A stretch of 64,000 bases of DNA from a virus: positions 1 to 64,000 of the IMG/VR virus record IMGVR_UViG_3300040801_001103, one strand, 5' to 3'. The notes under the pieces are model-generated. The model saw only the letters and a list, made by a program, of their open reading frames with translations, was not told the DNA's origin and did not search any database. The position numbers were made by a program, and so were the translations under genes. Below, in pieces: positions 2,663 through 59,441 of this stretch; within the stretch, counting starts at the first letter, position 1; each line of letters opens with the position of its first letter.

Positions 2663-4831
2663 TCAGGGATTATTGTAAGTGCGATCACGGCGCTGCTGGA
2701 TGGGGATGGTGGCATTTGCTGCTGTGTTAACGTTGGACAGGCTTAGATATTCAAATTCCAAACTGTGTACTACAATGTCAACAGCATCCGAAATAATTGA
2801 AAAAGACTCAGATGTATTGCTATTTTCCACACCACCCAGCTCAATGGTGGTGTTTGCTTGATATAATCGCACTTCAGAGTTAGCCTGTAAACCAGTCAAT
2901 GTAATCGTGGTAGGTGTGATTATGTTCACTGTTCCGTTTCTGGTGGCGTATACTTTGTCTTCGCGCAAATTACTGCCGTTAAGATTGGTCCAGGTCAGTG
3001 TGCCTGTTCCTCTCCACTCAACCCATATGGTGGCTTCTTCTGGGAATATAATTCCATCAGCATCAAATACTGCATTAGTACTACCAGAAGCAGGCTCTAT
3101 CCTTATGCTCAGCGGAGCATTGGGCCGTAACGCCGTCAAGGCATTTAATGCTGCTTGCTGGTTAGCAGGGGTGTCACTATTAATTATATCGTCAGGTACA
3201 GCGCCGCGTCGGAACAGATCCACGATATCTGAGTCAGGTTTACTAATAAACCAAGAATACCAATTACTGTAGAGCATATCAGACACGTTAACGAACGTCA
3301 CGTCAGTACCGGCCACTTCAAGTGAACTGCCTGGTCCACCTATGGATATATCGCCTGAGTGACTATCCAAGTCGGTACTCAATAACGGATTACCTGATGA
3401 TACAGTTTGTTTGACACCGTCAATATACATGGTCCACTCGCGCACTGGGTCAGTGTAGCTAAAACGGAACATGATGTGATAACTGCGGTTGGGGTCCAGA
3501 GCAAAGTCGCTAAAAACTTGCGAGTTGTCATCGGCCGTGTCAGCGAAACTCGCTATCAAGCGGTTACCTAATCCGATCAGAAAGCATAGATTGTTAACTC
3601 CACCACCTTCTTCATATATGCATGATAGACCCGAATAAATTGTTCTTGGTCGAATCCATCCACCCATTAATCTGTTGATGGTTGCTGTGTTATTCATTCT
3701 GTTACTGTTGGGACATTCGCGGCGTCCAGAGTTGGGATTCCAAGAGTTGGTCGTGCCTTCGGAAATAGCAGTTGCTTCAAATCCATTTGACCCCACTGAA
3801 GAACTGGTAAATGGGCTTCCGCCAAAATCTCCGATATCATCATAAGTGTTATCAAATGTCCACCAATGATCAGGTGCCTGTGCAGCGATAATTTCAGCAT
3901 AAGTGCTTATACCCACAAGAGTTTCATATGGTATCGTAATATTTCCCGTGTCATTTCTAACAACCAGGAAAATCGTGGTATTATCGTCTAAACCTCCTTG
4001 AGTGGCAACATATGTAATGGCAGTATCAGACCAACTGAGTATGGGTTGATCAACACTGATAGTGCCAAATGGGTCGCTCCACAGTTGTACATTACCAGTT
4101 CCCTGTGTGCTTTCAAAACCAAATCCTGATATTGTGATGTTTGCGCCATAATTAATGCGCTCATCACGAACAGTCACGGCAATGGTAGTGGGTTCAGCTA
4201 ATACTACAGCAATGATCTGCCCAAATGTAGAACCGCCACCAAATGTGACTACACCACTTGCAATCGTTGTGGGAGTAGATGGTGTTTGTTCAGCAAAACC
4301 ACCAGCACTCGAAGCAGCACCTGTACCTGGTGGCCCGTTGGTGTTGTCATCAACTCCCGTCCAACTACCAGGCCACGTCAACCCCAACGGATTTCCACTG
4401 TTACCAGATTCAGTACCTATGAATGCAACGGCAGTCTGATTAGTGCTCACTGTAGTCAGTGAAGGCACATCCATGGTCTGATCAGCCGGATTGTTGTCAG
4501 TTGTAGCCAATGATACTATGGGATTTATGGTATCAACATTTCTGTATGCGACCATGGCGATGTATGTACGTTCGCCTCCAGTTCGCGTTAGCGTATAACT
4601 AGCTGGCTCACTGCTGGCAGCGCGCCAGTATAAAGCATCAGTGTGACTGCCACCAGAAGTTGCACCACCAAAAGCCAAGGTCCACCCAGCCGGCGTATTC
4701 CACAATGTGGTTCCGTCACTTGATATAAACAACAGCAACACGTCATCATTCAGTGTTCCACCAGGAACACTGATAGTGGCTGTGGCAGCGTTATCTGAGT
4801 TGGTGGTGGTAAATCCAATTCTAGTAGCCAT
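2663..4831 (-). CDS. LamG-type lectin tail-fibre/adhesin protein
   Basis: A 722-residue virion protein. The N-terminal ~210 residues form one Gly/Thr/Ser-rich beta domain, followed by an Ig/IPT-like stretch near 215-300. A concanavalin A/LamG-like domain then starts with APDHWWTFDN (about residue 310) and carries the typical YHIMFRFSYTDP and WTMYIDGVKQ strands. The last ~170 residues match the C-terminus of the next upstream gene (LRPNAPLSIRI, GTGTLTWTN), so the two are paralogues. It ends in DRTYNNP, a tag shared with two neighbours. The stop of the upstream gene and this ATG overlap as TAATG. Binding of a surface glycan is inferred from the lectin fold. Confidence 0.75.
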   Translation of the reverse strand: MATRIGFTTTNSDNAATATISVPGGTLNDDVLLLFISSDGTTLWNTPAGWTLAFGGATSGGSHTDALYWRAASSEPASYTLTRTGGERTYIAMVAYRNVDTINPIVSLATTDNNPADQTMDVPSLTTVSTNQTAVAFIGTESGNSGNPLGLTWPGSWTGVDDNTNGPPGTGAASSAGGFAEQTPSTPTTIASGVVTFGGGSTFGQIIAVVLAEPTTIAVTVRDERINYGANITISGFGFESTQGTGNVQLWSDPFGTISVDQPILSWSDTAITYVATQGGLDDNTTIFLVVRNDTGNITIPYETLVGISTYAEIIAAQAPDHWWTFDNTYDDIGDFGGSPFTSSSVGSNGFEATAISEGTTNSWNPNSGRRECPNSNRMNNTATINRLMGGWIRPRTIYSGLSCIYEEGGGVNNLCFLIGLGNRLIASFADTADDNSQVFSDFALDPNRSYHIMFRFSYTDPVREWTMYIDGVKQTVSSGNPLLSTDLDSHSGDISIGGPGSSLEVAGTDVTFVNVSDMLYSNWYSWFISKPDSDIVDLFRRGAVPDDIINSDTPANQQAALNALTALRPNAPLSIRIEPASGSTNAVFDADGIIFPEEATIWVEWRGTGTLTWTNLNGSNLREDKVYATRNGTVNIITPTTITLTGLQANSEVRLYQANTTIELGGVENSNTSESFSIISDAVDIVVHSLEFEYLSLSNVNTAANATIPIQQRRDRTYNNP

Positions 4832-10877: not shown

Positions 10878-11481
10878 GGTCTTTTCCTAGTGTGTCCAGT
10901 ATTGTTGTGTCAAATTTCACGTTGAGCACTGGTTTGTTTATCCAGTTGTATTTTCGCGTGTATGGATTTTGCTTGGGGAAATCTTCTAAAGCTTGTATCT
11001 TTCCTGGATATCGATTGTACGTGGTTACCAGAAACAGATAGTTGGCGCCCAGAACATCAGTCTGCTCATCAAAGAATTCTTGACTGGCATCAATGTCGTA
11101 TGTACGGGTCTCACCATAATGATGATTGTGACTGTTAGCTGGGCTCTTGAGCCAGGCTGTCCAGCTATACGCTTGTGCAGCAAAGTCACGACGATACAGA
11201 TATTCCACATCACACACTTCAGCTATGCGGTCCATGATGGCAGCATCCCATAAAATGTGATCACCCATGAGCTTGAAAAACGTGGGCTTCTTGCTAATAC
11301 GATCAATCAAGCCATCCACGTGGTCCATGTTTTGCTTGAGTATGTTTTCTCTGGTGGGCAGGATGCCTCGTTTGTCACCAAACAGTTCCCATCCATTAGC
11401 CATGCCCTTGCGCCCAGAGCGAATGGTGTTGGTGCTGCCCACTCGATAATTGCATACTAGACACAGAGACTTCTTCATCAT
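10870..11481 (-). CDS. Sulfotransferase-like protein (Stf0-type)
   Basis: A 203-residue protein. CNYRVGSTNTIR (10-21) resembles the 5'-phosphosulfate loop with RxGST. VEYLYRRDFAAQAYSWTAWL resembles the LxRRDxxAQAxSW motif of Stf0 and related sulfotransferases. It differs in sequence from the other sulfotransferase-like protein two genes away, so the pair is not a recent duplication. It overlaps the methyltransferase genes on both sides. The acceptor is unknown; a lipid-linked or virion glycan is one possibility. Confidence 0.7.
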   Translation of the reverse strand: MMKKSLCLVCNYRVGSTNTIRSGRKGMANGWELFGDKRGILPTRENILKQNMDHVDGLIDRISKKPTFFKLMGDHILWDAAIMDRIAEVCDVEYLYRRDFAAQAYSWTAWLKSPANSHNHHYGETRTYDIDASQEFFDEQTDVLGANYLFLVTTYNRYPGKIQALEDFPKQNPYTRKYNWINKPVLNVKFDTTILDTLGKDHD

Positions 11482-12011
11482 CCTGCCTTGGGCTTCACGT
11501 AAAAGAAGCCACGTTGTAGTTTCTCATCAAACGAACTTTCCACGATGGTAAATCTTTCAGCTATCTTGGCTTCCCACCATGCAAACGGTTCTACAATCAG
11601 GTGTGCGTTACGACCATCTGGCAAGATGGCTGCTGCTGGACGAGTGCTCACAGTGTAGTAGCCACCCTTGAGTGTGCATCGTTTGAGATCATCCAGCACA
11701 TTGTCAATGAACTCTGGCTCGATGTGTTCTAACACATCAATGCTCACCACGTAGTTGTGTGGTGTGTTGTTCTCTCGGGTGCCTGCTCTGCCGGGCTCAT
11801 ACTCAGTAACTGTGAACTGCTTGGGATAACGACGCTTGAGGGCTTGTGTGAGACCACCTCGCCCTGCCCCGTAGTCCAAGAGCTTGTTTTCGTTGAGCTC
11901 CTGTGCATGCTTCACAATGACGTCCACATACTTCTCAGCCGTGTGACCCCATGCGCTGCGCTTGTGCTGCTGGGCCAGCTGGTCCTGATAGTTTTCTGAG
12001 ATGAGAGTCAT
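11478..12011 (-). CDS. SAM methyltransferase, tandem paralogue 3 of 3
   Basis: A 177-residue class I methyltransferase. Motif I is LLDYGAGRGGLTQAL (43-57), the post-motif strand is VTEYEPG, and motif IV is VVSIDVLEHIEPEF. The C-terminal part has KGGYYTVSTRPA and LPDGRNAHLIVEPFAWWEAKI. The last two elements recur nearly unchanged in the two upstream genes, so the three are tandem paralogues joined by TAATG or ATGA overlaps. The DGRNxHLI...WW motif may mark a common acceptor. The substrate is unknown. Confidence 0.8.
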   Translation of the reverse strand: MTLISENYQDQLAQQHKRSAWGHTAEKYVDVIVKHAQELNENKLLDYGAGRGGLTQALKRRYPKQFTVTEYEPGRAGTRENNTPHNYVVSIDVLEHIEPEFIDNVLDDLKRCTLKGGYYTVSTRPAAAILPDGRNAHLIVEPFAWWEAKIAERFTIVESSFDEKLQRGFFYVKPKAG

Positions 12012-12547
12012 TATTCCTCCAAAGGCTTCACGAAGAAGAAACCACGTTGCGCACTGTTGCTAAAATCTTCTTCCACGATAGTAAATCGTTTCTGGATGTG
12101 CTCCTTCCACCACGCAAAGGGCTTGATGATCAAATGCGCATTGCGACCATCTGGTAGCTTTTGTCCTGCTGCTCGTGTGCTCACAGTAAAGTATCCACCT
12201 TTGAGAGTTACGCGCTTCAAGTCATCTAACACGTTGTCCAGCAAGTCAGGCTCAATGTGTTCCAACACATCAATGCTCACCACGTAGTTGTGTGGAGTGT
12301 TATTGTGCATCAAGTCGTCCCTGCTGGGCTCATACTCAGTGACTGTGAACTCTCCCGGAAAGCGTTCCTGTAATACTCTGCTCAGACCACAACCACCTGA
12401 TCCATAATCAAGCAGCGTATTTTCGCCCAATTCAAGAGCATGCTGCACAATAAAGTCCACATACTGCGCGGCTGCAGGATCTTTCCACCCACCAGTGTCA
12501 TGCTTGGCTGCTAGTAGTGCTCGGTATTCCTCTGTAAGTAAAGTCAT
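12011..12547 (-). CDS. SAM methyltransferase, tandem paralogue 2 of 3
   Basis: A 178-residue paralogue of its two neighbours. Motif I is LLDYGSGGCGLSRVL, followed by VTEYEPSRDD, VVSIDVLEHIEPDLLDNVL and KLPDGRNAHLIIKPFAWW. It is closest to the downstream copy (11478-12011): the central ~40 residues differ at only a few positions, whereas the third copy is more diverged. This suggests stepwise duplication. The start is joined to the upstream stop by ATGA. The substrate is unknown. Confidence 0.8.
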   Translation of the reverse strand: MTLLTEEYRALLAAKHDTGGWKDPAAAQYVDFIVQHALELGENTLLDYGSGGCGLSRVLQERFPGEFTVTEYEPSRDDLMHNNTPHNYVVSIDVLEHIEPDLLDNVLDDLKRVTLKGGYFTVSTRAAGQKLPDGRNAHLIIKPFAWWKEHIQKRFTIVEEDFSNSAQRGFFFVKPLEE

Positions 12548-13068
12548 TTGGTAGTCACCACATACAGGCTGCGGGCACTGTTAATGTCTTTTCTTTCAAC
12601 ATTAAAGCGCGAAGTAATTTTGGGTTCCCACCACTCAGGTGGCTCCACAATCAGGTGAACGTTGCGGCCATCTGGTAGTGTCTTCAGTGACTCAAAGTGA
12701 GCAATCTGAAAGTATCCTGCCTTTAGCGTGACACGTTGCAGATCATCCAGGACATTTTCCAACAGTTCAGGTTCAATATGCTCAAGTACATCCACGCACA
12801 CCACAAAGTCGTGAGGTGTGTTGTTGTTCTCATATCCTGCCAGGCCTGGCTCGTAGTTGGTTACCTGGTACTGACCTGGACGTTGCTTCTCTACCATCTT
12901 GCCCAGGAAGCCTCTGCCTGAACCATAGTCCAGGAAGCTGTTGGCACCGTGACGATCCACTTGCTCCAGGATGTGTTCCCAGCTACGGCTTGCTGTGTTG
13001 CCCCAATCTCCAGGCTTGTGTAGCTCCTCGAGTTGTTGGCGATAATGTTCTGATATTAACTGACTCAT
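12544..13068 (-). CDS. SAM methyltransferase, tandem paralogue 1 of 3
   Basis: A 174-residue member, first of the tandem trio in the direction of transcription. Motif I is FLDYGSGRGFLGKMV, then VTNYEPGLAG, VVCVDVLEHIEPELLENVL, and TLPDGRNVHLIVEPPEWW. It is the most divergent copy: the C-terminus is SARSLYVVTTK, where the other two end in an RGFFYVKP-like stretch. All motifs needed to bind SAM are intact, so all three copies look functional. Confidence 0.8.
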   Translation of the reverse strand: MSQLISEHYRQQLEELHKPGDWGNTASRSWEHILEQVDRHGANSFLDYGSGRGFLGKMVEKQRPGQYQVTNYEPGLAGYENNNTPHDFVVCVDVLEHIEPELLENVLDDLQRVTLKAGYFQIAHFESLKTLPDGRNVHLIVEPPEWWEPKITSRFNVERKDINSARSLYVVTTK

Positions 13069-28386: not shown

Positions 28387-28394
28387 TATTTATC
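28387..28394 (-). promoter_or_regulatory. T4-type late promoter
   Basis: GATAAATA on the minus strand, 22 nt before the ATG of the 805-residue gene, with AAGGAG in between. Confidence 0.7.
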
Positions 28395-28398
28395 GGAT

Positions 28399-29550
28399 TT
28401 ACAAGAAACTGACCGGCATGGGAGAGTCGAACTCGTCAAGATAGTCATCTAGAGCGTCACCAGCCAGATTGCTGTTGATAACATCGTAGATTGTGTCTTC
28501 GAATGTGGCAATGTAGTTGATCATGCGGATGGCTAACACCAGTGCCATTACAGTGTCATCATGTTCGCCTGGTTTAGCTGCAAAACTCTGTCCTTTGGCC
28601 ACGAAGCCCTTGAGCTCTTTGATCAATACCTTGCTGTATATTCTGAGCTTGCCAGTCTCAATGTATCGCTTGAGACTCAGGCATGCCTCCAGTTTACTCT
28701 TGGCTGTGGTGTGGAATCCCAACCGACCTCGGCGTCCAGCTACCTTGTGTGGATCGTGGAGCATCTCGCCCGGGAATGATTCTTCACCAGTGTCACGGAT
28801 AACCACCAGTGCACCTTCGCCTATGCTGTTGTTTTCCACACTCCAATACATGCTGCTACACCCGAAGTCTTCTAAGTAGCGCAGTATTTCCATCATGCAT
28901 TTAACCTGTCCTTCCACAGGAGTCTTGTTGTGTTGCCACTCAGCAATCTGCATCATGCTGGGCATCTCTATGACCTGAATAGCTGCATAGTCGCCGCCTG
29001 TTCCAGTGCTGGGGTCCAAGCTCACCACATAAGTGCTGTTGGGGTCTGGGTACTTGTACCATCGCACTTGGCCAATCTTTTGCGCTGGATCAACTCCCTG
29101 CATATCAACCAACATCAGCTGATCAATAAGTGTCTCTTCGAAGATGATGAATTCACAGTTGGAAACCAGTACACCGTTTGCGTAGAAACGATTACCCTGA
29201 TGCACATTGTATATGTCGTAAACTTCTTCCAGTTGATGCTGGCTTATGTTTTTTACCTTGGCTGTAGTTTCTTTTACGATTATGTTATGCTCTAGAGATA
29301 AGTCTTTTGCTGCGACTCTAACCATTGCTTCTGTGAGAAACTCATGATCAGGAGTACAATAGATAACCTTACCATCATCTAACTCCACGCAGACAGTATC
29401 CCTGGTGCCTTTTTTGATTACACCATCGAAATCACTAAACCCACTATCAGTGAGTATCTTGATGCCTTTATCGTTTTTTACTAATTCTGCCACGGGTAAA
29501 TCCCTCTGGTACTTCACCATCTCGAAATTGTTTGTTTGCTGTGCCGTCAT
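28399..29550 (-). CDS. 17: Large terminase C-terminal half with C-part of a split intein
   Basis: A 383-residue frame with two parts. Residues 1-131 are the large C-terminal piece of an intein: KGIKILTDSGFSDFDGVIKK, block B YCTPDHEF (Thr66, His69), block F EVYDIYNVHQGNRFYANG, ending LVSN131. From Cys132 (CEFIIFEETLIDQLML) follows the gp17-type nuclease domain with VVSLDPSTGTGGDY, YWSVENNSIGEG and GEHDDTVMALVLA, whose Asp/Glu residues bind metal. After trans-splicing, Cys132 joins Glu279 of the N-half. The penultimate intein residue is Ser, not the usual His. The first Met may be 29550 or, ten residues on, 29520; neither has a strong ribosome-binding site. Confidence 0.9.
   Translation of the reverse strand: MTAQQTNNFEMVKYQRDLPVAELVKNDKGIKILTDSGFSDFDGVIKKGTRDTVCVELDDGKVIYCTPDHEFLTEAMVRVAAKDLSLEHNIIVKETTAKVKNISQHQLEEVYDIYNVHQGNRFYANGVLVSNCEFIIFEETLIDQLMLVDMQGVDPAQKIGQVRWYKYPDPNSTYVVSLDPSTGTGGDYAAIQVIEMPSMMQIAEWQHNKTPVEGQVKCMMEILRYLEDFGCSSMYWSVENNSIGEGALVVIRDTGEESFPGEMLHDPHKVAGRRGRLGFHTTAKSKLEACLSLKRYIETGKLRIYSKVLIKELKGFVAKGQSFAAKPGEHDDTVMALVLAIRMINYIATFEDTIYDVINSNLAGDALDDYLDEFDSPMPVSFL
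29158..29550 (-). other. C-intein segment of split TerL intein
   Basis: This part encodes the ~121-131-residue C-intein ending SN before the catalytic +1 Cys. It holds blocks B, F and G, so the split lies far N-terminal, as in the atypically split AceL-TerL intein, to which GIKILTDSGFSDFDGV is visibly similar. Confidence 0.85.
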
Positions 29551-30160
29551 TGTACCAGCGCATGCCTTTCTTGTTACTTTTACGCCCCGGCTTTCGACCA
29601 GCGCGGAATCCTTCTGGACACTCTACCGCGTATGTCTCTATGTCGCCGTTCGTAAACCAAGTTTTTCCTGTTGCTGAACCTGTTCGTCCCTTTGTTGCTT
29701 CGCTTATCTTGCGAGCCCGTTCAGAATCTTTGAGGTATTCATAACCGTGCTTTTCTCTGGCTGTCATACGTTCCTGACGTTCTTGTTCGCTCCACCCTGA
29801 GCCTTTTTTGCGACCACCTACACCAGGGCGCTTCACGCCGCGATTGGGTGCTGCCTTGCCGTACATTGGATTCTTATCGCCCATCTTGATTTCTCGTAAG
29901 TATTCAATCATTTCAGGATCATGCTTATAGTTTGTTGGGTTACCCAGATTACTGTTGCGGGCAATCTCAAACAATCTTTCTTCGTGCCCGATTTTACCTG
30001 CTAGACTCAACCATGCGACTTTATCCTGCCAGCGTCCGTGTTTTTCATATAACTCACGGTGCGCTTCAGCATGTTCTTCAATCGTGAGTTCCACTAGATT
30101 TTCTGGGGCGTCGCTTCCGCCTGCGTGTCTTGGGATCACGTGGTGCTTGTGCTTTATCAT
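29468..30160 (-). CDS. HNH homing endonuclease inserted between terminase halves
   Basis: A 230-residue free-standing HNH endonuclease. The N-terminal KHHVIPRHAGGSDAPENLVE, then LTIEEHAEAH, gives the HNH residues (His6/His7, Asn21, His30). The middle is basic with NPMYGKAAPNRG and SEQERQERMTAREKHGYEYL. The C-terminus carries two copies of a DNA-binding repeat (TWFTNGDIE...CPEGFRAGRKPG and RWYNDGTANK...VPEGFTRGR) of the kind found in phage homing enzymes. It lies wholly between the N- and C-intein coding pieces and overlaps the C-half start by ~80 nt. It probably moves the intein cassette by cutting uninterrupted terminase genes. Confidence 0.9.
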   Translation of the reverse strand: MIKHKHHVIPRHAGGSDAPENLVELTIEEHAEAHRELYEKHGRWQDKVAWLSLAGKIGHEERLFEIARNSNLGNPTNYKHDPEMIEYLREIKMGDKNPMYGKAAPNRGVKRPGVGGRKKGSGWSEQERQERMTAREKHGYEYLKDSERARKISEATKGRTGSATGKTWFTNGDIETYAVECPEGFRAGRKPGRKSNKKGMRWYNDGTANKQFRDGEVPEGFTRGRISKKR

Positions 30161-30266
30161 CAGACTTTATTACTCCATCTTCAACTTTTTCACCTGCATC
30201 AGGGTCGCGCCACATATAGCCGTCAAACCCTTCAGTAAATGTTTTGTCTATGTCTTTTAGTCTCAT
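30078..30266 (-). CDS. Small basic protein in the intein gap
   Basis: A 62-residue frame, MRLKDIDKTFTEGFDGYMWR at the start, with a very basic end (RRRKRRPRKSSGTHD). GATAAATA lies only 3 nt before its ATG. The 3' third overlaps the HNH gene by 83 nt in another frame. It could be a small late protein or a remnant of what stood between the terminase halves. A chance frame is the main alternative. Confidence 0.4.
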   Translation of the reverse strand: MRLKDIDKTFTEGFDGYMWRDPDAGEKVEDGVIKSDDKAQAPRDPKTRRRKRRPRKSSGTHD

Positions 30267-30269
30267 GGT

Positions 30270-30277
30270 TATTTATC
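30270..30277 (-). promoter_or_regulatory. Possible late promoter in the intein gap
   Basis: GATAAATA on the minus strand, 3 nt before the small gene at 30266. It could give the HNH gene and the C-terminal terminase half their own late transcript. Confidence 0.45.
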
Positions 30278-30291
30278 TGTTTCGTCCAATA

Positions 30292-31224
30292 TTACGAACT
30301 CAACAATGCTTCAAGTTCCACGATAGTTACCTCACGGATTTCACCATCAGGCATTTGAATTGTTACTTTGCTGTCACCGCACAAGCATTCGTGTTCACGA
30401 CGGAATTTTTCTTCGCCAATACTGCTACGTTCTTCTGCTGCCCAGGCATCATCTCTATCAGGGTGTGCACTCCAGATAGCCTTGTATTCACGGAAACCGT
30501 TCTTGCCCAGTCCTGTTTCAAACTCATTACCATACTCATCAAACTTATCACAAGCACCCTTCCAGATGGTGGCAAACAGATCCTCGTCACTGTTGGGTGT
30601 GCTGGTGATAATACACTTACCACCTGTAGCAAGTGTGGGCGACAATGAGGTCCAAAACTCGCCTGCAATATTGGGTTTCACAAATGCAAACTCGTCCAAG
30701 TATACAAGTGTGATGGACATTCCTCGGCCTGTTGTCTCTGTGGTTGTTTCAGCAACAATGCGCGAACCGTTGTCAAAGCTCAAGCTTCCTTTGTTGTATT
30801 CTGTGGCGCCAGCACGAATATAGTCTGGGCAGTTTTCATAAGCAAAACGCACACGCCGCATGATGTCTGATGCGTTCTTACCTTTGTTACTGGCAATTAA
30901 GATTTCACTGTCTGCTCGGAACATGGCGTACCACAACAGGTATCCTGCAGCCACAGTGGTCTTGCCCAGCTGACGTCCCATCATGTTGATGCTGCGTCTG
31001 CTGTGCACATAGTTTTCGATTAGGGCTAACTGATATTCGTAAGGTTCGAAAAGCATGCGTCCTTTAGTGGGGTGTTGAATCCACATAAAGTTGCGCATGA
31101 AGTACAGTGGCCCGTCTATGGGGTCACAACATTTTTGAAAGTGCTCTAGTTCTTCAGCTGTGTAATGATCTTGTTTAAAGGCCTGTTTGACTAGAGTTGT
31201 GTCTGCTGTTCCTTTTGTACTCAT
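30292..31224 (-). CDS. 17: Large terminase N-terminal half with N-part of a split intein
   Basis: A 310-residue frame. Residues 1-279 are the ATPase domain of a gp17-type packaging motor: Walker A GRQLGKTT (83-90, as in T4 gp17), Walker B LVYLDEFA (173-180), and the coupling motif CIITSTPNSDE. At Cys280 the sequence changes to CLCGDSKVTIQMPDGEIREV and stops 31 residues later; this is intein block A. The frame that would complete terminase is 740 nt away, behind an HNH gene. The mature junction would read KFRREHE-CEFIIFEETL, which fits T4-like terminases. The start lies 5 nt after a late-promoter box. Confidence 0.92.
   Translation of the reverse strand: MSTKGTADTTLVKQAFKQDHYTAEELEHFQKCCDPIDGPLYFMRNFMWIQHPTKGRMLFEPYEYQLALIENYVHSRRSINMMGRQLGKTTVAAGYLLWYAMFRADSEILIASNKGKNASDIMRRVRFAYENCPDYIRAGATEYNKGSLSFDNGSRIVAETTTETTGRGMSITLVYLDEFAFVKPNIAGEFWTSLSPTLATGGKCIITSTPNSDEDLFATIWKGACDKFDEYGNEFETGLGKNGFREYKAIWSAHPDRDDAWAAEERSSIGEEKFRREHECLCGDSKVTIQMPDGEIREVTIVELEALLSS
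30295..30387 (-). other. N-intein segment of split TerL intein
   Basis: It codes for 31 residues starting with the catalytic Cys (CLCGDSKV...). It is very short compared with ~100 residues in DnaE-type split inteins, and similar in length and start (CxxGDxxV) to AceL-TerL. Confidence 0.85.
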
Positions 31225-33343: not shown

Positions 33344-33826
33344 CTATTTATCGGAATCGGAATCCTTTTTGCTCAACATTTTCAAAAGATCGTTGCGATC
33401 CAGAGCTTGAGCTGGTATGTCTTCTGCTTCGGGCTTGCGAGAAGTGTCACGTTGGTCCAGATTGGCCTTCTTGAGCATGAGGTCAATCTGCTTGAGCTTG
33501 CGAGTTACTTTGCTGTCCTTGGCTTCCAGGGCAATCTTGAGCATGGTTGCTGCGTTGTTCAACACTGGCCCGGCTGCCATGTCTGTCATGTTCATGCCCA
33601 AACTCATGAGAGCCTGATAGCTTTCCATGGCTTCTCGAGCAATTTCATCCATCTCGCCATCATGTGCTTCCATGCCACGCACCTGACTCAGGGCACTATT
33701 GATTTTCTCGCTAATCGAGATGGCGTCTTCAACTTCCACAATGTCATGCTGAATGTCATCGCTTGAGGGTATGTCACTCTCGTCGATTGGAGGTAGGTTA
33801 AATTCTTCTTCTAGTCGTTTTGTCAT
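33344..33826 (-). CDS. 16: Small terminase subunit (gp16-like)
   Basis: A 160-residue helical protein. The N-terminus is LEEEFNLPPIDESDIPSSDD, followed by a central core EMDEIAREAMESYQALMSLG and AATMLKIALEAKDSKVTRKL, and a basic helix KQIDLMLKKANLDQR. This is the gp16 pattern (acidic start, central helical hairpin that forms the ring, basic tail) and the length equals T4 gp16 (164). It recognises DNA and stimulates the gp17 motor. It starts 5 nt after a late-promoter box and is separated from the large terminase by four other genes. Confidence 0.8.
   Translation of the reverse strand: MTKRLEEEFNLPPIDESDIPSSDDIQHDIVEVEDAISISEKINSALSQVRGMEAHDGEMDEIAREAMESYQALMSLGMNMTDMAAGPVLNNAATMLKIALEAKDSKVTRKLKQIDLMLKKANLDQRDTSRKPEAEDIPAQALDRNDLLKMLSKKDSDSDK
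33345..33352 (-). promoter_or_regulatory. T4-type late promoter
   Basis: GATAAATA on the minus strand, 26 nt upstream of the start at 33318, with GGAG in between. Confidence 0.65.
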
Positions 33827-59433: not shown

Positions 59434-59441
59434 TATTTATC
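59434..59441 (-). promoter_or_regulatory. T4-type late promoter of collagen-like gene
   Basis: GATAAATA on the minus strand, 23 nt upstream of the ATG at 59410, with an AGAGG-type site between. Confidence 0.65.

Follow-up and report, generated by a model that had tools for sequence, protein, structure and literature searches.

A split intein and an HNH endonuclease gene within the large terminase gene of a T4-type phage, probably forming a mobile cassette

The DNA analysed here (the window) comprises 64,000 nucleotides of a 64,009-base IMG/VR virus record (IMGVR_UViG_3300040801_001103), a partial genome. The record is a fragment of a T4-type phage, with T4-type genes for tail sheath, tail tube, deoxynucleoside monophosphate (dNMP) kinase, UvsX and a single-stranded DNA-binding protein. 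Its large terminase gene, terL, lies on the minus strand and is interrupted at REHE/CEF. We consider it very probable that the interrupted locus is a mobile cassette, in which a split HINT-fold intein is combined with a homing endonuclease and intact terminase is obtained by trans-splicing. The intein between REHE and CEF would be encoded by two genes: the N-terminal half of the terminase (TerL-N) would end in an N-piece of 31 residues, and the C-terminal half (TerL-C) would begin with a C-piece of 112 residues. The HNH homing endonuclease gene lies between the pieces, its last codons overlapping the start of the C-piece. Both TerL precursors would be made by separate translation, whereupon the intein pieces would associate and trans-splice to intact terminase. 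The endonuclease would cut intein-less terL of co-infecting phages, and repair of the cut gene would copy the whole block of N-piece, homing endonuclease gene (HEG) and C-piece. Splicing of the window's TerL halves is what we infer from their sequence, and infectivity would depend on it.

The interrupted terminase gene and its intein pieces

The features of the locus are collected in Table 1. Pfam and PHROGs divide the terminase between the two open reading frames (ORFs), with Terminase_6N in the N-half and Terminase_6C in the C-half. The gene is closest in type to terL of jumbo phages such as PA5oct, to whose TerL the N-extein is 63% identical. Both halves align end to end with uninterrupted relatives (PA5oct, L002 and L003), in which the junction falls exactly at E/C or the equivalent position. 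Inspection of the ORFs revealed no premature stop or frameshift in either TerL half. The 64-kb record holds one terL gene, and virion genes flank it. A first-pass annotation had described terL as broken by an atypical split intein whose halves flank an HNH gene; the two ORFs, the intein pieces, the HNH/NUMOD3 matches and the recurrence in about 35 contigs (see below) bear this out, as does the end of the N-half 31 residues past REHE.

Table 1. Features of the terL locus (window coordinates)
Feature	Position	Strand	Evidence or content
N-half ORF	31224-30292	-	C-terminus KFRREHE followed by CLCGDSKVTIQMPDGEIREVTIVELEALLSS and stop; 31 intein residues
C-half ORF	29550-28399	-	GNRFYANGVLVSN followed by CEFIIFEETL; intein end reads VSN/CEF
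TerL N-extein (ATPase domain), 279 residues to REHE	30388-31224	-	Terminase_6N 3e-18; PHROG 36964 1.7e-65
TerL C-extein (nuclease domain), from Cys+1	28399-29157	-	Terminase_6C 4.9e-9; PHROG 36964 4e-50
Intein N-piece, 31 residues with Cys1, plus stop codon	30292-30387	-	aligns with N-part of contiguous inteins L117, L021/L129, L124
Intein C-piece, 112 residues, GTG start	29158-29493	-	blocks B, F, G; phmmer to 6dsl (CatC) 1.2e-7
HNH/NUMOD3 homing endonuclease, 230 residues	29468-30160	-	NUMOD3 6.6e-7; HNH 0.0028; PHROG 655 (homing endonuclease) 4.7e-15
Late-promoter-like motif (T4 type) upstream of endonuclease gene, GATAAATA	30270-30277	-	motif enrichment
Short terL copy, corresponding to codons D-E-T immediately 3' of the insertion site, GACGAAACA	30278-30286	-	position weight matrix (PWM) score 14.4, p=0.02
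Small overlapping frame	30078-30266	-	no homologue; endonuclease starts at most about 40 nt after N-half stop in most relatives

The length first assigned to the C-piece, about 125 residues, had to be revised. GTG 29493 is preceded by a Shine-Dalgarno (SD)-like AGAGGG placed inside the HNH gene and is almost certainly the start of the C-half, which would therefore carry a C-piece of 112 residues; this start overlaps the end of the HNH gene by 26 nt. The proposed far N-terminal split of the AceL/Cat-TerL type, by contrast, agrees with the 31-residue N-piece and with the database matches of the C-piece. Already as a single sequence the C-piece retrieved CatC, the consensus TerL split intein (PDB 6dsl), and a nine-sequence C-piece profile searched against PDB gave CatC as the best match (4.3e-25), followed by gp41-1 and VidaL. 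These comparisons place both pieces in a family of inteins with homology to CatC, gp41-1 and VidaL. The Pfam family Intein_splicing matched the C-half at 2.4e-5, under the family's cut-off. Failure of the pieces to align as one intein fold had been named as a possible refutation; they do align with inteins that are contiguous at this site in relatives. Structure prediction was made on one of these, the L117 intein, standing in for the window's two pieces; it yielded a full intein fold (predicted local distance difference test score, pLDDT, 94.6), with VidaL as best PDB match (template modelling score, TM, 0.83). Cys1, the TxxH of block B, the terminal Asn and Cys+1 are retained in the family (27 sequences for catalytic residues), and the ratio of nonsynonymous to synonymous substitution rates (dN/dS) of the C-piece, 0.03-0.14, indicates strong purifying selection.

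Recurrence, mobility and the endonuclease slot

The split arrangement was found in about 35 distinct IMG/VR contigs, all at the window's terL site. They were gathered by protein scans with C-piece and HNH sequences and by later scans with the contiguous inteins; because the TerL C-pieces taken together gave too divergent a profile for scanning, three closer ones served instead. With the TerL N-half as query, 80 relatives were returned, 77 of them with an empty site, the others being truncated, split (L022) and contiguous (L021), one each. On the TerL tree split and empty alleles are intermixed, and the window's sister and closest TerL relative (L002, 77% identical) has an empty site. Six close pairs were compared, and three of them show steps in nucleotide identity that fall at the splice junctions. 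For the N-piece/HEG/C-piece block, identity amounts to 96% in L106/L109 (TerL flanks 86 and 78%), 92% in L130/L132 (76 and 72%) and 85% in L106/L122 (67 and 61%). Synonymous divergence (dS) in L106/L109 and L130/L132 is low in the intein and high in the exteins. The pattern indicates that N-piece, endonuclease and C-piece travel between phages as one unit, and the steps in three of the six pairs together with the patchy distribution point to the horizontal spread with precise boundaries of a homing element.

The 230-residue HNH endonuclease first annotated between the halves is present as described, and full-length relatives occupy the same slot, for example in L110 (63% identical), L116 (62%) and L169 (57%). 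The small basic frame annotated beside it is probably not a gene; homologues were sought in phage records and in the fetched loci, and none were found. From the endonuclease stop to Cys+1 the distance is 308-314 nt in nearly all split loci, and in most of them the overlap around the GTG is two-frame coding, the endonuclease reading RGRIxKK-stop and the C-piece V-[EDA]-[ED]LxKN. The tail motif PEGFxxGR is attributed to the endonuclease rather than to the intein because it is present twice in the window enzyme. Several kinds of nuclease end occupy the slot, i.e. HNH (two kinds), GIY-YIG (two kinds) and a DUF7487 protein (L119). L104, L111 and L135 match window-type enzymes over the C-terminal half only, at about 50% identity, and have a GIY-YIG-like front; in L104 and L111 this assignment relies on a sequence motif, and for L111 Pfam gave no match. 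Judging by these matches, nuclease domains of HNH, GIY-YIG and DUF7487 type are swapped on a mostly constant tail. The DUF7487 (PF24308) protein at L119 3468-4514 ends at the same position as the other endonucleases. Its occurrence suggests that DUF7487 is a homing-nuclease family, with motifs that look PD-(D/E)XK-like.

The upstream region and contiguous relatives

The motif RATAAATA (GATAAATA) occurs 12 times in the window versus 2.5 expected, mostly just upstream of gene starts (e.g. 28387-28394, 33345-33352 and 59434-59441), and these 12 sites are likely T4-type late promoters. Of 24 split relatives, 17 have TAAATA downstream of the N-half stop, compared to 3.6 in shuffles, and the endonuclease probably has its own late promoter. 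In the window about 100 nt of extra sequence (30160-30266, minus strand), absent in relatives, separate the late-promoter-like motif from the HNH start. At the junction after the N-half stop the motif is preceded by GACGAAACA, the short terL copy listed in Table 1. For the family, the mean score against the terL-copy profile is 12.8; shuffles give 9.24±0.34 and the sequence following other stop codons 8.9, and the high score is limited to the profile for the terL position immediately 3' of the insertion site. Junctions matched directly to the terL of their own locus gave weak results, with 4 of 25 loci above all controls, which made the family profile necessary. GACGAAACA is a possible operator; equally possible is that the copy represents a relic of insertion. 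In T4, a homing-site copy beside a late promoter upstream of the I-TevI endonuclease gene is used for self-repression (PMC2988022). By its sequence the window may resemble this, a short terL copy adjoining a late-promoter-like motif 5' of the endonuclease, albeit I-TevI is intron-encoded and experimentally tested. The terL copy beside the probable late promoter may allow self-repression of the endonuclease.

Contiguous inteins at the window's site were identified in L117, L021 (= L129) and L124, in one contig each; second copies were sought in extra scans and none were found. L117 contains an out-of-frame EGFHRGRISKK-stop together with a relict SD-GTG start, and L021 an out-of-frame RQFKGGRVSKK. 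Both stretches resemble endonuclease tails. In L113 all that is left of the endonuclease is its tail, which continues the reading frame of the N-half, and L124 has no clear endonuclease scar. A single clade of the three contiguous inteins is rejected (approximately unbiased test, p-AU 0.002), the trees of contiguous and split inteins being without direction of change. Because L117 and L021 keep out-of-frame remnants of endonuclease tails, repeated endonuclease loss and re-fusion appears the simplest reading of the contiguous forms. Upon decay of the endonuclease the intein would re-fuse as a cis-splicing mini-intein, scarred by out-of-frame endonuclease and C-piece-start sequence. Combined into one account, i.e. 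a self-regulating cassette with a constant DNA-binding tail, swapped nucleases, autorepression via the copy of the terL target and re-fusion to a scarred cis-splicing mini-intein, these elements form a tentative proposal, about which we are slightly more doubtful than confident.

Further inteins were observed in terL of individual relatives. L113 (1302-2840) bears two, a contiguous one at the Walker B site and a split one at the window's site; L124 (1389-2432) has a C-piece at Walker B and the contiguous intein at the window's site. Vibrio phage VP-1 (L015, 1337-3553) combines a contiguous intein at Walker A with a split one at the window's site, and its TerL C-half (3642-4679) is annotated from a start within the C-intein piece, the true start lying upstream. 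In Agrobacterium phage Atu_ph07 (L005, 2483-4674) a split intein is located at the Walker A site. Elsewhere in the window, likewise on the minus strand, three tandem related genes (11478-13068; 177, 178 and 174 residues) have similar N-termini, and towards the end of the contig (55076-59410 and 60508-63879) lie probable fibre genes, whose very long products contain collagen-like GIQ/GVQ repeats.

Alternative explanations and known systems

An assembly or sequencing error, by which terL would really be continuous or the pieces would stem from a frameshift, had been named in the first-pass annotation as a possible refutation. The locus comes from a single metagenomic contig, and a one-A deletion in the A6 run near 29475 would merge the HNH frame with the C-piece frame. 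Still, no single frameshift restores one frame, stops occur in all frames between the halves, including the stretch between the N-half and the HNH gene, and the arrangement recurs in the distinct contigs with its near-constant spacing. The probability of such an error is negligible; as the source of the arrangement it is ruled out by the independent contigs. Under RNA splicing, the intein gene would instead be contiguous, and the HNH gene would belong to a group I or II intron within it. In favour of this possibility, phage group I introns commonly encode HNH/NUMOD3 enzymes. In addition, the terL of Campylobacter phage IBB_35 was read by its authors as intein plus intron (PMC3322345). In the window, however, no group I or II intron was matched in Rfam at the gathering threshold or at E up to 10, the spacer from N-half stop to endonuclease start is as small as 3-4 nt in relatives, and the endonuclease end overlaps C-piece coding sequence that has its own start codon and SD, which renders this explanation very unlikely.

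A dead intein is conceivable as well, in which case TerL-N and TerL-C would function together as an enzyme of two chains, comparable to Aeh1 NrdA, which mobE splits. Non-splicing precedents of this kind exist in T4-like phages (PMC2988022), and the penultimate His is missing family-wide. Conversely, the purifying selection on the C-piece, the catalytic residues conserved across the 27 sequences and the persistence of contiguous in-frame versions, which need splicing to restore TerL, make a dead intein unlikely. That the broken gene is a decaying copy, another gene supplying the large terminase, would be compatible with a record of only 64 kb, but is extremely unlikely given the single terL, the flanking virion genes and the two undamaged halves. 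Several observations nonetheless weigh against the trans-splicing cassette and its proposed regulation. The residue before the terminal Asn is Ser or Lys throughout the family, never His, and the chemistry may therefore be slow or differ in detail. The identity step is absent or small in L101/L166, L104/L111 and L102/L131. Moreover, the terL copy in the window is only 9 nt long, and both the late-promoter and the operator readings are based on motif enrichment.

Among characterised systems, the atypical TerL split inteins AceL-TerL, GOS-TerL and Cat-TerL have N-pieces of 25-37 and C-pieces of 104-115 residues (PMC11766414). The window shares with them the terL host gene and a far N-terminal split (31/112 residues), with AceL and Cat the Cys1/Cys+1 pair, and with Cat the best PDB sequence match and a chain that continues C-E after the intein. 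It differs from all three in its penultimate Ser/Lys (vs His) and in the jumbo-phage clade of its TerL. The insertion site of AceL and GOS TerL may be that of the window, as the Cat chain suggests. Split inteins in fractured genes, with a homing endonuclease between the halves, were reportedly described by Dassa et al. in 2009. Both the AceL NrdHF "fractured gene" with GIY-YIG (98/48, split at the usual endonuclease site; PMC7891396) and MIJ3 PolB with an HNH enzyme between the halves (PMC6892783) consist, like the window locus, of two host-gene ORFs each with an intein piece and an endonuclease ORF between them. Their split lies far from the N-end (in MIJ3 PolB by its listed motif blocks), unlike the far N-terminal site of the window endonuclease.

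In Aeromonas phage PX29, Providencia PSTRCR_127, Vibrio K452 and VP-1, terL is broken at the equivalent site (QEH/C or equivalent) with the same order of short N-piece, endonuclease and C-piece; PX29 17A/17B are annotated as N-intein and GIY-YIG plus C-intein. All four have a GIY-YIG endonuclease, which in PX29, K452 and VP-1 shares a continuous reading frame with one of the terL halves. The terL genes of Yersinia TG1, Shigella JK32, Salicola SCTP-2 and Campylobacter PC14 bear a homologous atypical C-piece, inserted at Walker B (DE/C) rather than at the window's site; TG1 has the order N-half, endonuclease, C-half, and the TG1/JK32 endonuclease is from another family. An intein and an HNH mobE-like gene were reported in IBB_35 terL (PMC3322345). 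GenBank and papers (PMC3322345) thus already contain fractured TerL genes in which an endonuclease separates the split-intein halves, and the novelty first claimed for the window was overstated. To our knowledge of the searchable papers, the re-fusion series, the nuclease exchange and the family-level operator-like copy have not been described for split inteins.

In protein labelling, split inteins whose N-piece is very short are valued tools. The family supplies about 30 new and divergent pairs that are split in nature, and its three contiguous members provide natural controls. At the window's terL site the empty state, the split state with intact endonuclease, the split state with endonuclease remnant and the contiguous state with scar are all present, a rare one-site series that permits direct tests of split-intein origin and loss. 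If true, the reversal from split to contiguous would represent a second direction of intein evolution.
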